In this document: piece after piece, positions 12,757-17,896 of the stretch
Layout of the letters: each line of letters opens with the position of its first letter
How positions within the stretch are numbered: position 1 is the first letter of the stretch
Assembly (NCBI RefSeq): GCF_000526395.1
Contig: NZ_JAFZ01000001.1
Span: 496,001-560,000 of the forward strand
Length of the DNA: 64,000 nt
Source: Aminobacterium mobile DSM 12262
GTDB lineage: Bacteria > Synergistota > Synergistia > Synergistales > Aminobacteriaceae
Direction of reading: 5' to 3'
Notes under the pieces: model-generated
What the model saw: only the letters and a program-made list of their open reading frames with translations
Told to the model about the DNA's origin: nothing
Database searches by the model: none
Position numbers and translations under genes: made by a program

Positions 12757-13250
12757 TCATAACAACTCCCTAATAGATGCAAAATACCAAACCCTATATG
12801 ACAACGAAACAAACGAATATAATATGCCAAATTCAAAAAAGTAGCAAGGGCATTACTGAAAAGTTGCCATTAAACGACAATAACAACAACGCGTTGCTTA
12901 TAGACAGTAATACATTATGTCTCATTAAAAGATAGCGAGATAAAAACAAGGATAGGGAAGTACTTCATCGCTTCGTTTTCTTTTCGCAGAAGGCCTCGAA
13001 TGTTTTTGTTAAAATTATTCTAAGTTTAAACGTTCTCTCCCATTAAATATCTGAGTACCACAGCTTACTTTAACAGTATAGCGTATGTTGTCGAAAAACG
13101 ATAATATATTTCGTGAGTCTACTACAAACGGTGTTTTTGTGGGGCAATAACGTGTAGCTTTTTACTCACTATAATACCCCCAGCGAGTGTGTTTATTCAA
13201 TGTTGCCATGAACGAAGCCGATGATATATAGGGTTGTCGTTAAGAAGGAT
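12757..13250. other. AT-rich intergenic stretch, nothing firm
   Basis: About 490 bases without a convincing gene on either strand. It must hold the typA promoter (minus strand) and that of the downstream unknown gene. A TATAAT lies at 13170-13175 but has no good -35 partner. Several short A-rich tracts are present. No stable hairpin with a T-run was seen. Confidence 0.5.
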
Positions 13251-14453
13251 ATGTCAATATTGAGAAGAAGGAAGGAATGGCCGTTGAAAAAGGAAGAAAA
13301 GAACATCATCAATTCAGTAGACGTAGATGATCATTTATGTTTGCAGCTTTGGTCTCGGGGGGCCGTTCCTCGGCTTATTATTTTCAATAAGGGGAGAGGG
13401 AATGGAAGAACAGTTCGTTTCTCATGGCTTGAAGGAGAGAATAAATCTATTTCTCTTAAAAAAAGTGATGGCAAGATTGAGCAATATCCAATTCAAGATA
13501 TCCTTCCTCAAATACATGAGCTCCTTAGAACAGAGGCATCTTATGCTCCTTACAAAGCTCTTTTGTGGAAAACGGCTCTCCTTTTTGTAGAGTATCTCCA
13601 CGAGCCCAAAACTGTACTTTCGAAAGAAGACCTTGCCATGCTTCCTGAGGAAAAGAGAGAGGTTTTGTGGCTGGTAAATATGATTAATGGAGTAGAAAAA
13701 GCTTCTTTTTTCCCCTCTTTCCCTTTGTCAGAAGAAGAGAAGGTTTTGATAGGGGAAGATCTGTCTATTCCGGTAAAAGATGGAGAGCGTTCAGTGTTTG
13801 GGTTACGATCTCTTGGCATTACAAGAAAATTAACGTCTTGTAATCCTGAAAGATGGTATCGTCCCCTTTTCTTTTCAGCAGCAGCTCTTCTTCTCGGTTT
13901 CTCTCTGGCGGAGGAAGATACACAAGATGTTTCTGACTTTTTTTGGCAAGAAGTATCAGAAGAAGGCAAAGTATGGGATACATTGAAACAGCTTCCTTCT
14001 GCGGAGGGCAAGATACGAAAACCTCTTCTTCATTTTCAACGTAAAGTCCGAGGATATGTGAGGCATTGGGCGTTATTAAATGATATTGAAAGAGAAGAAT
14101 CTTATGACGGAGAGAATGCCTTGTTGGAACAGGGTTTTAAAAGAAAGAAACGGATGATTTTTCCTGAAGGGGTTCTTGGGGACGTCCCGTACAAAGTGAT
14201 ATTTTGCGAGTTGGGGGAAGAGGATAAATTGGCAGTATGTCTTTCCCCTGAACAGGCAACACTTCGCCATAAAGGAGATCGAATCTATCGTCTTTCAACT
14301 CTTTCTTTCTCTGAAGCTCAAGAGCGTGATAGCGCAGGGAGTGTAAAGGACGAATTTTTTACTCTCGGAAGTCTCGTAAAAGCTGTAGATTTTAAATGGT
14401 GGCTCTCAGATATACGAAAAATACTAGAGCCAATACTTTCTTCTCCGTTATAA
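13251..14453 (+). CDS. Hypothetical protein of about 400 residues
   Basis: Not recognised. The frame is open from 13221. The ATG at 13251 is preferred over that at 13221 because AAGG lies just before it, though very close. A TTG at 13284 with AAGGA spaced about 8 nt before it is an equally reasonable start. The product is mostly soluble and rich in Lys, Glu, Leu and Trp. A single hydrophobic patch around residue 210 (FFSAAALLLGFSLA) is too short and isolated to prove a membrane segment. No catalytic motif, signal peptide or metal site is evident. It is followed by a peroxiredoxin gene that has its own promoter, so a functional link is not shown. Confidence 0.65.
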   Translation: MSILRRRKEWPLKKEEKNIINSVDVDDHLCLQLWSRGAVPRLIIFNKGRGNGRTVRFSWLEGENKSISLKKSDGKIEQYPIQDILPQIHELLRTEASYAPYKALLWKTALLFVEYLHEPKTVLSKEDLAMLPEEKREVLWLVNMINGVEKASFFPSFPLSEEEKVLIGEDLSIPVKDGERSVFGLRSLGITRKLTSCNPERWYRPLFFSAAALLLGFSLAEEDTQDVSDFFWQEVSEEGKVWDTLKQLPSAEGKIRKPLLHFQRKVRGYVRHWALLNDIEREESYDGENALLEQGFKRKKRMIFPEGVLGDVPYKVIFCELGEEDKLAVCLSPEQATLRHKGDRIYRLSTLSFSEAQERDSAGSVKDEFFTLGSLVKAVDFKWWLSDIRKILEPILSSPL

Positions 14454-14521: not shown

Positions 14522-15244
14522 ATGGTAGAGAAGAAAAAGAGTGGATGTGTTGTTCCTTCAGCAGTGGTAGAGGGACAGGAAATGCCAAAAGAGGATTTGA
14601 GGAGTGTTTCTGAAAAGGAGGCGAAAGGCATGTCCATTATGGTAGGGAGGAAAGCTCCGAATTTTACAGCACCAGCATATTACAATGGAAATTTTACTAC
14701 TGTCAGTTTATCTGATTTTGTTGGCAAATGGGTTTTGCTGTGTTTCTACCCAGGAGATTTTACATTCGTTTGAGCCACGGAAGTGTCGGCAGTTGCTGAC
14801 AGATATGAAGAAATTCATGACCTTGGCGTGGAAGTTATCTCTATGAGTGTAGACAGCCAGTTTGTTCACAAAATTTGGAATGACATGGAACTTTCAAAAA
14901 TGGCAGGCAAAAATGTTCCATTCCACATGGCTTCCGATGGAGGCGGCAATATAGGAAGTGCATATGGAGTGTATGATCCAGAGGCTGGAGTGGATGTTCG
15001 TGGACGTTTTATTATTGATCCCGATGGTGTTGTCCAGGCCATGGAAGTGTTAACTCCGCCAGTGGGTAGAAATGTAGACGAAACAATCCGTCAGATTAAA
15101 GCGTTCCAATTAGTTCGGGAGACAGAGGGGAAACAGGTAACCCCTTCAGGGTGGCATCCAGGAGGGAAGACACTAGAGCCAGGCGTTAACCTGGTTGGTA
15201 AAGTTTGGGAAAAATGGACTCCTCGCGACGAATATAAGAAATAA
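14522..15244 (+). CDS. Selenocysteine-containing peroxiredoxin (in-frame TGA at 14771)
   Basis: AhpC/TSA-type peroxiredoxin of 240 residues when the TGA at 14771-14773 is read as selenocysteine. The active site then reads FYPGDFTFV-U-ATEVSAVADRYEE, with Sec exactly at the peroxidatic cysteine (usual form FTFVCPTE). Homology runs on uninterrupted past the TGA (VISMSVDS, FIIDPDGVVQAM, ending in the Prx C-terminal region PSGWHPGGKTL). The usual C-terminal resolving cysteine is absent: the normal VCPANW-like motif is VTPSGW. It should therefore work as a one-Sec enzyme reduced by an external thiol, unless Cys9 of the 35-residue N-terminal extension participates. Start at ATG 14522 after AAGGAGGTG. 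A stem-loop 10 nt after the TGA fits a bacterial SECIS. Role: peroxide detoxification in an anaerobe. Confidence 0.93.
14784..14801 (+). promoter_or_regulatory. SECIS element of the peroxiredoxin gene
   Basis: Stem TGTCGGC/GCTGACA (7 pairs including one G-T) closed by the loop AGTT. It starts 10 nt after the TGA, and the loop G is about 18 nt from the TGA. Position, size and GU in the loop fit bacterial SECIS hairpins read by SelB. Confidence 0.8.
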
Positions 15245-15432: not shown

Positions 15433-16398
15433 ATGGGAAGAGTTCTTGTTGGTACATGTTCATGGAGCGATCGTTCTCTCGTTGAAAGTGGTTGGTATCC
15501 CAGGGAAGCATCTACTCCCGCTTCAAGGTTGCACCATTATGCTCAGAATTTTGAAACGGTGGAGGTAGACAGTACTTTTTATGCTCTTCCCCAAGAAACC
15601 ACGGTGTTTCGGTGGGCACTTCGAACGCCGCCGAATTTTATATTTAATATTAAAGCCTATGGCTTATTCACTTTTCACAAAATTGCATATGGGAGCCTCC
15701 CTCTTTGGTTGCGTAAAGAATTGCCAGCGCGTTTAAAAAAGGACGATAAAATAGCTCATCAAGCTATCCCTTTTTCTCTGCGTCGAACCTTGTGGAAACA
15801 ATTCATAAACCTTATTACACCGTTACATCAGATGAAGCGTTTAGGCTACCTGCTCTTCCAGCTTCCTCCATGGCTGGGGTATTCCTCATCTTCCATAAAT
15901 TATTTAAAACACGTTGCCTCTATGGCTCCTCCTTTCAAGATCGCTGTTGAGGTCCGAAACGGAAGCTGGCTGAGAGAGGGACGTAAAAGCTTCGAGTCTC
16001 TTTTAAAGGATGGAAATATGGCTTACGTAATGGTGGATGAACCTCAATTGTCTTGGACGGTTCCTCCAGAGATGTTTCTGACGGCGGCATGGGGAGGTGT
16101 TGTCCGTTTTCATGGAAGAAATAAGTCCGCATGGGAGCAAAAAGGAGCTTCAGTTCAAGACCGATTCCGTTATCGTTATAAAGAGGAAGAACTTCTTCAG
16201 TGGAAAGATTCTCTTCTTTGTTTAAAAGATCATGTTCCCTCTCTTTTTATCATGTTTAATAATTGCTATAGGAACTTTGCGGTGAGCAATGCATTGCAGA
16301 TGCAGAAGCTTTTTGAAATAGCCCCTCCTAAAGAAGGCCTTTTTCAAAAGACGTTAAATTTTGAAGGAGAGAAATGTAGATCAAGAGAAAAAATTTAA
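15433..16398 (+). CDS. DUF72 (YecE-like) family protein
   Basis: About 321 residues, TIM-barrel family of unknown biochemical role. Family marks are the N-terminal VGTCSWSD, the NFETVEVDSTFYALP strand, FQLPPW, KIAVEVRNGSW and VRFHGRN near the C-terminal half. The start at ATG 15433 is chosen because GAGGTG ends 6 nt before it; two earlier in-frame starts overlap that site. Single-gene unit. Function unknown for the family as a whole. Confidence 0.9.
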   Translation: MGRVLVGTCSWSDRSLVESGWYPREASTPASRLHHYAQNFETVEVDSTFYALPQETTVFRWALRTPPNFIFNIKAYGLFTFHKIAYGSLPLWLRKELPARLKKDDKIAHQAIPFSLRRTLWKQFINLITPLHQMKRLGYLLFQLPPWLGYSSSSINYLKHVASMAPPFKIAVEVRNGSWLREGRKSFESLLKDGNMAYVMVDEPQLSWTVPPEMFLTAAWGGVVRFHGRNKSAWEQKGASVQDRFRYRYKEEELLQWKDSLLCLKDHVPSLFIMFNNCYRNFAVSNALQMQKLFEIAPPKEGLFQKTLNFEGEKCRSREKI

Positions 16399-16523: not shown

Positions 16524-16720
16524 GAACAAAAGGATCCACGAAGGAGGGGATGGGAAAATAAGTTCTAGAGAACCTTCCGTGATGGGACAACTGAATAGAA
16601 AACATAATCAGGGAATAATCCCTGTAAGATTCCCGGTAGGGAACCCAGTCCAGCCAGAAAGCTGGAGGGAAAGAAAATAAGAGGGACTTGTAGAAAGGGT
16701 ACAGCCCCTCTTTAAATTGT
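16524..16720 (+). ncRNA. Putative structured small RNA of unknown family
   Basis: A unit of about 195 nt bounded by a near-consensus promoter and an intrinsic terminator. Visible helices in order: CACGAAGG with CCTTcCGTG (16537-16544 with 16573-16581, one bulged C); CAGGGA-ATAA-TCCCTG (16609-16624); TTCCC-GGTA-GGGAA (16630-16643); TCCAGC-CAGAAA-GCTGGA (16649-16666). The terminator stem has AGAGGG/CCCTCT as outer arms (16680-16711), with T-rich sequence after it. AAGGAGGGG near the 5' end could instead pair with CCCCTCTTT at the 3' end, an alternative closing stem. It does not fit the consensus I know for cobalamin, FMN, TPP, SAM or c-di-GMP riboswitches, T-boxes, SRP RNA, RNase P or tmRNA. 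The length would suit 6S RNA, but I cannot show the required central bubble. An open frame from ATG 16522 lacks a ribosome binding site and looks like chance. The stretch just upstream (16449-16488) may hold a weak terminator for the DUF72 gene. Confidence 0.6.
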
Positions 16721-16724
16721 TGTT

Positions 16725-17429
16725 TTATGTAGGTGCTGTATATATAAAGTAGAGTCCCGCAAGAATAATTAAAATACCGCATAAATAGTTAACTCTAGAA
16801 AGTGCACGGGATCTTTCGTCCCACTTTAAAAACTTAGAGACAAAATCTGCGGAAGTTCCTGCAAAAATAATAACAGAGCAGTGCCCTAGAGCATAAAAAG
16901 TTACAAGAAGAAGTGCAAACGGCAGGTTTGTCGTTGCTGTTTTGATAGTAAGAGCCAAAAGTGGAGCCACATAAGCGAAGCTACATGGTCCTAATGCGAG
17001 GCCTGATAAAATTCCCAACACGAGTGCTCCCCCAAGCCCCCCTCTTTTCCCTGGTTTCAAGGCCTTTTGCCCAAACCACGGAAGCTTGATGACATCAAGA
17101 AGATGAAGGCCTATAAGAAAGAATATAGTAGCGACAAAGTAGTTGGAATATTTCCCTATATCTGTCATGAGTAAGCCTGTAGATGTGAGCACCATGCCTA
17201 CGAGGGCAAGGTTGACAAAAATTCCTGCCGAAAAAGCGAGAGAAATAGCGAAGGCACTCGCCCTTTTTTCCCCTCGGGTGCTTTCAATGTATCCAACGAC
17301 AAGTGGTATGGTTACAAGGTTGCATGGACTTAAAAGAATGCTGAAAATTCCCCATATAAAGGCAGCTGAAAGAGCGAAGCCACTTGAACTGTGAAGAGAA
17401 ATATAGATGGTCTCAAATATGTTTCCCAT
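16725..17429 (-). CDS. CcdA/DsbD-type transmembrane thiol electron transporter
   Basis: Carries reducing equivalents from cytoplasmic thioredoxin across the membrane to an outward-facing thiol protein. About 234 residues with six predicted helices. The paired cysteines of the family are present: SPCNLVTIP in the first helix and GPCSFAYVAP in the fourth. It starts 4 nt after the stop codon of the selenocysteine thioredoxin-like gene and is clearly translated with it. The natural substrate is therefore very likely that protein. Its 3' end runs close to the end of the putative small RNA on the other strand. Confidence 0.9.
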   Translation of the reverse strand: MGNIFETIYISLHSSSGFALSAAFIWGIFSILLSPCNLVTIPLVVGYIESTRGEKRASAFAISLAFSAGIFVNLALVGMVLTSTGLLMTDIGKYSNYFVATIFFLIGLHLLDVIKLPWFGQKALKPGKRGGLGGALVLGILSGLALGPCSFAYVAPLLALTIKTATTNLPFALLLVTFYALGHCSVIIFAGTSADFVSKFLKWDERSRALSRVNYLCGILIILAGLYFIYTAPT

Positions 17430-17433
17430 GGTT

Positions 17434-17841
17434 TTATTTCTTCTCGAGATGGATTCCCAGCACGTCTAGTTTCATAAGGAGTTCTTCTAGAGACATGTAA
17501 CCAACCTCTTTTCCGAGTTCTCCTCCCGTACTGTTCAAAAACACAAGGGTTGGTACATACTTGACCTCATATTTGCGGGCCAGGTCGGAGTTTTGCATGA
17601 CATCTATTTTCTCTACTCGAATAGAATCTCCATATTGAGCTGTTAGGTCGTCCAAAACTTTGGACATTTCTGTGCACGCAGGTCATCCCGCTGCGCTAAG
17701 GTCTATAATTAAAGGAAGATTAGTTTTAATTTCTTTGTTGAGTGCGGTGTTTTCCTGTTTCACTTTACTCTCTCTAATGTAAAAAGTTCCAGCTATAGCT
17801 AAGAAGAGGAGAAGGATGATTGTTACCTTTCTTCTATTCAT
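17434..17841 (-). CDS. Membrane-anchored selenocysteine thioredoxin-like protein (UxxC, in-frame TGA at 17683-17685)
   Basis: 135 residues when the TGA (complement of 17683-17685) is read as selenocysteine. From ATG 17841, preceded by AAGGAGGTGGCC, the protein has a single N-terminal membrane anchor (about residues 5-22). It then has NLPLIIDLSAAG-U-PACTEM and continues into a thioredoxin fold (RVEKIDVMQNSDLARKYEVK, then the cis-Pro loop YVPTLVFL). The redox motif is thus U-P-A-C in place of C-x-x-C. With the anchor it should face outside the membrane. A stem-loop downstream of the TGA fits a SECIS. The next gene, 4 nt away, encodes CcdA, the expected electron donor. A normal annotation would see only the 77 residues after the TGA and miss the active site. 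Confidence 0.9.
17650..17665 (-). promoter_or_regulatory. SECIS element of the thioredoxin-like gene
   Basis: On the coding strand, GTCCAA-AGTT-TTGGAC, a six-pair stem with the loop AGTT. It begins 17 nt after the TGA, and the loop G is about 25 nt from it. The loop is identical to that of the peroxiredoxin SECIS. Confidence 0.75.
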
Positions 17842-17868: not shown

Positions 17869-17896
17869 ATTATACGGAATTCATGGTACCCGTCAA
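17869..17896 (-). promoter_or_regulatory. Promoter of the thioredoxin-like/CcdA operon
   Basis: On the minus strand TTGACG (17896-17891), 16-nt spacer, perfect TATAAT (17874-17869), 27 nt before the start codon. Confidence 0.75.

Follow-up and report, generated by a model that had tools for sequence, protein, structure and literature searches.

A reading frame interrupted by a single TGA codon in the genome of Aminobacterium mobile DSM 12262 raised the question of whether this codon is read as selenocysteine (Sec) in a membrane-anchored thioredoxin, and which function such a protein would have beside a gene for CcdA. The frame, designated trxU, lies in a window of 64,000 nucleotides (the whole stretch of DNA that was analysed; contig NZ_JAFZ01000001.1, positions 496,001 to 560,000), to which the coordinates given here refer. 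It had been placed at the correct coordinates in the original prediction, and its strand, left unstated there, is the minus strand. The features of the gene pair are the following:

17869..17896, minus strand: promoter-like site TTGACG-16-TATAAT 5' of trxU (11 of 12 consensus matches)
17434..17841, minus strand: trxU, with one in-frame TGA, a Thioredoxin domain (E = 5e-14) and Cys/Sec homologues phylum-wide
17770..17826, minus strand: hydrophobic N-terminal anchor of TrxU, residues 6-24 (Kyte-Doolittle 1.87)
17683..17685, minus strand: TGA codon 53, putatively read as Sec (homologues at this position: TGA 30/91, Cys 60/91)
17650..17665, minus strand: SECIS-like hairpin GTCCAA-AGTT-TTGGAC, recognised by its conservation across Sec loci
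16725..17429, minus strand: ccdA, a DsbD_TM/CcdA-like membrane electron carrier of 234 aa (PF02683, 9e-12)

With TGA read as Sec, TrxU comprises 135 aa (MNRRKVTIILLLFLAIAGTFYIRESK...LSAAGUPACTEMSKVLDD...), the only TGA being codon 53, within the motif U53-P-A-C56. A strong ribosome binding site (AAGGAGGT) ends 8 nt 5' of the ATG; the promoter-like site ends 27 nt upstream of the start codon and is a consensus match only, many of which are expected by chance in the region. C-terminal to the anchor, the thioredoxin domain was matched by PF00085 with 52.5 bits (gathering score 23.5; Pfam), and both the active-site motif (UPAC) and the cis-proline of the VP motif (P97) are conserved. The protein also matched PF13098 (2e-10; Pfam), and scored 53.5 against the NCBIfam thioredoxin equivalog TIGR01068, below the cut-off of 96.8. 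Only 1 of 5000 dinucleotide shuffles gave a frame as open as this one. The earlier description of the locus, as a frame running from a strong ribosome site and a membrane anchor through one TGA into a thioredoxin fold, agrees with these data, and standard ORF calling yielded, as had been foreseen, a 77-aa tail alone (17667-17434). Ordinary gene calling loses the active site of TrxU, and the reading given here thus corrects the annotation.

The genome (2.1 Mb, 99.7% complete) was checked for the selenocysteine machinery, and contains a tRNA-Sec above the Rfam cut-off, with anticodon TCA, as well as SelA, SelB and SelD, each above its curated cut-off; the SelD gene has an in-frame TGA too. A search of 188 Synergistota genomes, 139 of which carry selA, detected relatives of TrxU in 149, and the 91 loci with an alignment score of at least 150 were scored. 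At exactly the trxU TGA codon, 60 of these loci have Cys, 30 have TGA and one has Glu, a Cys/Sec exchange that upholds the placement of the TGA on the first active-site cysteine. All 18 homologues from genomes without selA lack TGA at this position, while 28 of the 30 TGA loci belong to genomes with full selA matches and the other two to genomes with partial ones (Fisher p = 4e-4, a value that overstates independence because the genomes are related). In a 90-sequence tree, for which the Sec/Cys column was masked, the Sec/Cys label needed 11 changes, at least six of them forced by well-supported branches. A contig scan seeded with a five-sequence alignment recovered 26 loci, 19 from Synergistales or Synergistaceae plus one from Fretibacterium, and the remaining ones include distant Melainabacteria/Gastranaerophilales/Cyanobacteria bins, Bacilli and other bacteria; the scan relies on narrow peptide patterns, and therefore absence outside the listed groups is not shown. 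A double-Sec (UxxU) variant in one genome (G038) was considered and rejected, as its second TGA lies past the domain end and looks like an ordinary stop.

In the RNA, the trxU hairpin reads GUCCAA-AGUU-UUGGAC, with the loop 27-30 nt from the U of the UGA and a G second in the loop. It is complete, with all six pairs and in the same place, in 18 of the 30 Sec loci, and a different stem is common to eight Sec loci of one genus. In five sequences the second base pair is changed in a compensatory manner from U-A to G-C, and none of 500 shuffles came as high. Cys loci have a mean of 2.9 of the six pairs; the whole stem is retained in two Cys genes (G033 and G059), and, as G059 is without selA, its stem appears to be a remnant of Sec ancestry. 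Compared with Cys genes, Sec genes had the lower folding energy (p = 2e-7). The free energy of the single trxU hairpin is unremarkable (z about 0) and was dropped as evidence, the comparison across homologues being used instead. Hence, the hairpin predicted after the TGA is present and conserved among Sec genes, and its free energy, taken alone, is ordinary. The comparative data indicate that a SECIS-like hairpin downstream of the UGA is under selection, and its recognition by SelB is predicted.

The machinery, the Cys/Sec exchange, the conserved hairpin and the lack of TGA where selA is lacking strongly support Sec at the first active-site position, and on this genomic evidence Sec decoding of codon 53 appears practically certain. 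The codon could otherwise be a true stop, as the standard code reads it, trxU being then either a pseudogene or two separate products, a membrane peptide of 52 residues and a downstream protein of 77 residues; the ordinary free energy of the hairpin by itself would also agree with a stop. However, 30 loci from many genera have their TGA at this one catalytic codon, none of them in a selA-lacking genome, and this, together with a frame that is intact on both sides and a hairpin that covaries, makes a stop exceedingly improbable. With Sec decoding, SelB and tRNA-Sec would read the UGA, helped by the hairpin just downstream. The 30 Sec and 60 Cys loci, with their repeated switches, also constitute a natural series, in which the gain of Sec over Cys in one thioredoxin becomes directly testable.

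The ccdA gene starts at 17429, 4 nt past the trxU stop, and its product scored 45.2 bits against PF02683 (gathering score 27.1). Cys36 and Cys149 sit in hydrophobic segments and are invariant among the homologues that cover them (37/37 and 36/36, respectively), as expected from the earlier assignment of both catalytic cysteines to this neighbour, and two further cysteines vary. In 25 of the 30 Sec loci ccdA adjoins the Sec gene, directly downstream and on the same strand, some of the others stopping at a contig edge; among the scored Cys loci it is adjacent in only eight. The genome has one other CcdA-thioredoxin pair (L124, C1:1335400-1339600), with the motif CIPC, which lies among efflux-type genes; its cluster includes a permease, a small CxxC redox protein and an apparent part of an arsenite-type transporter (names assigned by eye). 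In the genus coded g10 (L063, L069 and related loci), thioredoxins were observed whose leaders resemble signal peptides and which have no CcdA within the stretch examined; at times they are arranged in tandem with a copy bearing a degenerate CxxC.

Several Cys homologues of TrxU start with leaders that, by eye, resemble cleavable signal peptides, and these would put the domain on the extracytoplasmic side. An extracytoplasmic location of TrxU and its coupling to CcdA, as predicted from sequence, are well supported. From this arrangement we infer the orientation of TrxU, the electron flow and the client. The N-terminal helix would hold the thioredoxin domain at the inner membrane, on its outer face. 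Cytosolic thioredoxin, which is present in the genome, would donate electrons that pass through Cys36/Cys149 of CcdA and reduce the Sec53-Cys56 bond of TrxU; Sec53 would act as the nucleophile on an oxidised sulfur of an exported client, with Cys56 resolving the intermediate. On general chemical grounds, reducing a Sec-Cys bond should be more difficult than reducing a disulfide, which counts against the relay unless CcdA can meet this demand. Most likely, CcdA carries cytosolic electrons to the exported selenothiol of TrxU, and such a relay is considered very probable.

Exported proteins or peroxides had been suggested as the targets of this relay, and a candidate for the latter is encoded nearby:

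14522-15244, plus strand: prxU, Sec peroxiredoxin (NF040737, 388 bits vs 270)

This second selenoprotein gene of the region, with an in-frame TGA at 14771-14773, is also split in two by ordinary ORF calling. It lies 2.2 kb from trxU, and in the three genomes of the genus it stays close to trxU-ccdA, an arrangement that would suit a TrxU that feeds PrxU for peroxide removal. But PrxU, counted from the start at 14522 that its ribosome site indicates, lacks a signal peptide and thus looks cytosolic, a compartment for which the genome already has a thioredoxin; moreover, prxU and trxU are on opposite strands, and in the wider neighbourhoods of other families that were examined no prxU was found beside trxU. 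PrxU was rejected as a client on its predicted compartment, the cytosol, and this role is judged very improbable; the location and coupling of the proposed selenothiol are well supported, and its client, whether exported proteins or peroxides, is hypothetical. An exported MsrB is a better candidate. The only MsrB of the genome has a signal peptide, and therefore the module would serve to repair oxidised methionines of the cell envelope, this MsrB being the likeliest client. Many MsrBs of related genera also have a signal peptide (by eye). At genus level, MsrB tends to occur together with a CcdA-linked thioredoxin (p = 0.0025, genera being counted without phylogeny correction). Against this role, MsrB in the genus coded g27 is fused with MsrA and shows no evident signal peptide.

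Also against it, in Aminobacterium sp. MB27-C1 (G031; L199, G031:C1:1701500-1704000) msrB is broken, its middle part being missing and its frame changed, and the trxU-ccdA pair of this genome is intact. On all of this evidence, confidence in the relay is high, and MsrB as the main client of TrxU stands at about even odds or slightly below. The same Sec-thioredoxin/CcdA relay might serve instead as a general envelope reductant for free thiols, sulfenic acids and other exported proteins, without being an MsrB donor. That broader function would account for the intact pair in G031, for the four genomes with a CcdA-linked thioredoxin in which no MsrB match was found (G021, G022, G024 and G105) and for the lack of an msrB adjacent to trxU in the neighbourhoods examined; the gene-level co-occurrence with MsrB and the export of the sole MsrB by a signal peptide argue against it. 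Searches of the genome for DsbA and VKOR family members found none, so correction of DsbA errors is not an obvious role for TrxU, and a general reductant would have no evident supply of wrong disulfides to correct. We regard this alternative as conceivable but doubtful. For the whole explanation, that is, a Sec-containing TrxU, a CcdA relay and an exported MsrB client, a probability of about 0.6 is estimated.

Other features of the region were observed near the pair. Between the DUF72 gene and ccdA, positions 16525-16715 (plus strand) could encode a non-coding RNA with a folded structure, about 190 nt long, which three genomes of the genus share together with the invariant block CGAAGGAGGGGATGGGAAAATAAGT; five stems are predicted, with compensatory changes in 8 of 40 predicted pairs, and the fold z is -3.6 on the plus strand and -4.6 on the minus strand. 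A promoter-like TTGATA-17-TACAAT lies just upstream, a stem followed by T-rich sequence is present at its end, and no Rfam match was obtained up to E = 1. The product of 13221-14453 (plus strand), 410 aa long, matched nothing in Pfam or NCBIfam; in G038 (L053) a relative, 36% identical, neighbours the Sec-thioredoxin, and in G086 (L069) a protein of similar appearance neighbours the thioredoxin. The ARAGORN call of a tRNA-Pro at 16082-16174 (plus strand), within the DUF72 gene, is probably false, because it has no Rfam match at the gathering score.

Sec-thioredoxins and CcdA-thioredoxin relays are each already known, and Synergistota are known to be rich in selenoproteins; no description of an exported Sec-thioredoxin/CcdA pair was found in the open-access main texts searched. 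What is tentatively proposed is a Synergistota-centred selenium-based transmembrane reducing system, from CcdA through an exported Sec-thioredoxin to the repair of envelope methionine sulfoxide, in anaerobes in which DsbA and VKOR were not found. Sec would be in the exported arm of a CcdA relay, and, as neither DsbA nor VKOR was found in this genome, anaerobes may use selenium for reduction or repair in the envelope. TrxU shares the thioredoxin domain and the Sec at the first UxxC position with the listed Sec thioredoxin family (PF00085, UxxC; PMC13188914, PMC1794560), but differs in being membrane-anchored, exported by prediction and paired with ccdA, and in scoring below the TIGR01068 cut-off (53.5 vs 96.8). 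In Streptococcus pneumoniae, CcdA-Etrx pairs reduce MsrAB2 (PMC3914529); ccdA beside a membrane-attached thioredoxin, in A. mobile putatively extracytoplasmic, is common to both systems, and an MsrB-type client is proposed here, whereas the Etrx proteins are Cys lipoproteins and TrxU is a putative Sec protein with a transmembrane anchor, from a diderm anaerobe and with a putative client. The listed thiol:disulfide interchange selenoprotein (PF13098, UxxC; PMC13188914, PMC1794560) also has Sec in a UxxC thioredoxin-like domain, and TrxU matches that family (2e-10), but it was reported from Thermodesulfobacteriota, such as Geobacter and Syntrophus, and TrxU is from Synergistota. Finally, the rhodanese/DsbD fusion-like selenoprotein TsoB (NF045694) likewise combines a DsbD-like membrane part with a thioredoxin-like part; TrxU (38.4 bits) and CcdA (23.8 bits) gave weak partial matches, far from the cut-off of 805, and the A. 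mobile system differs from it in having two genes, no rhodanese domain and one Sec.
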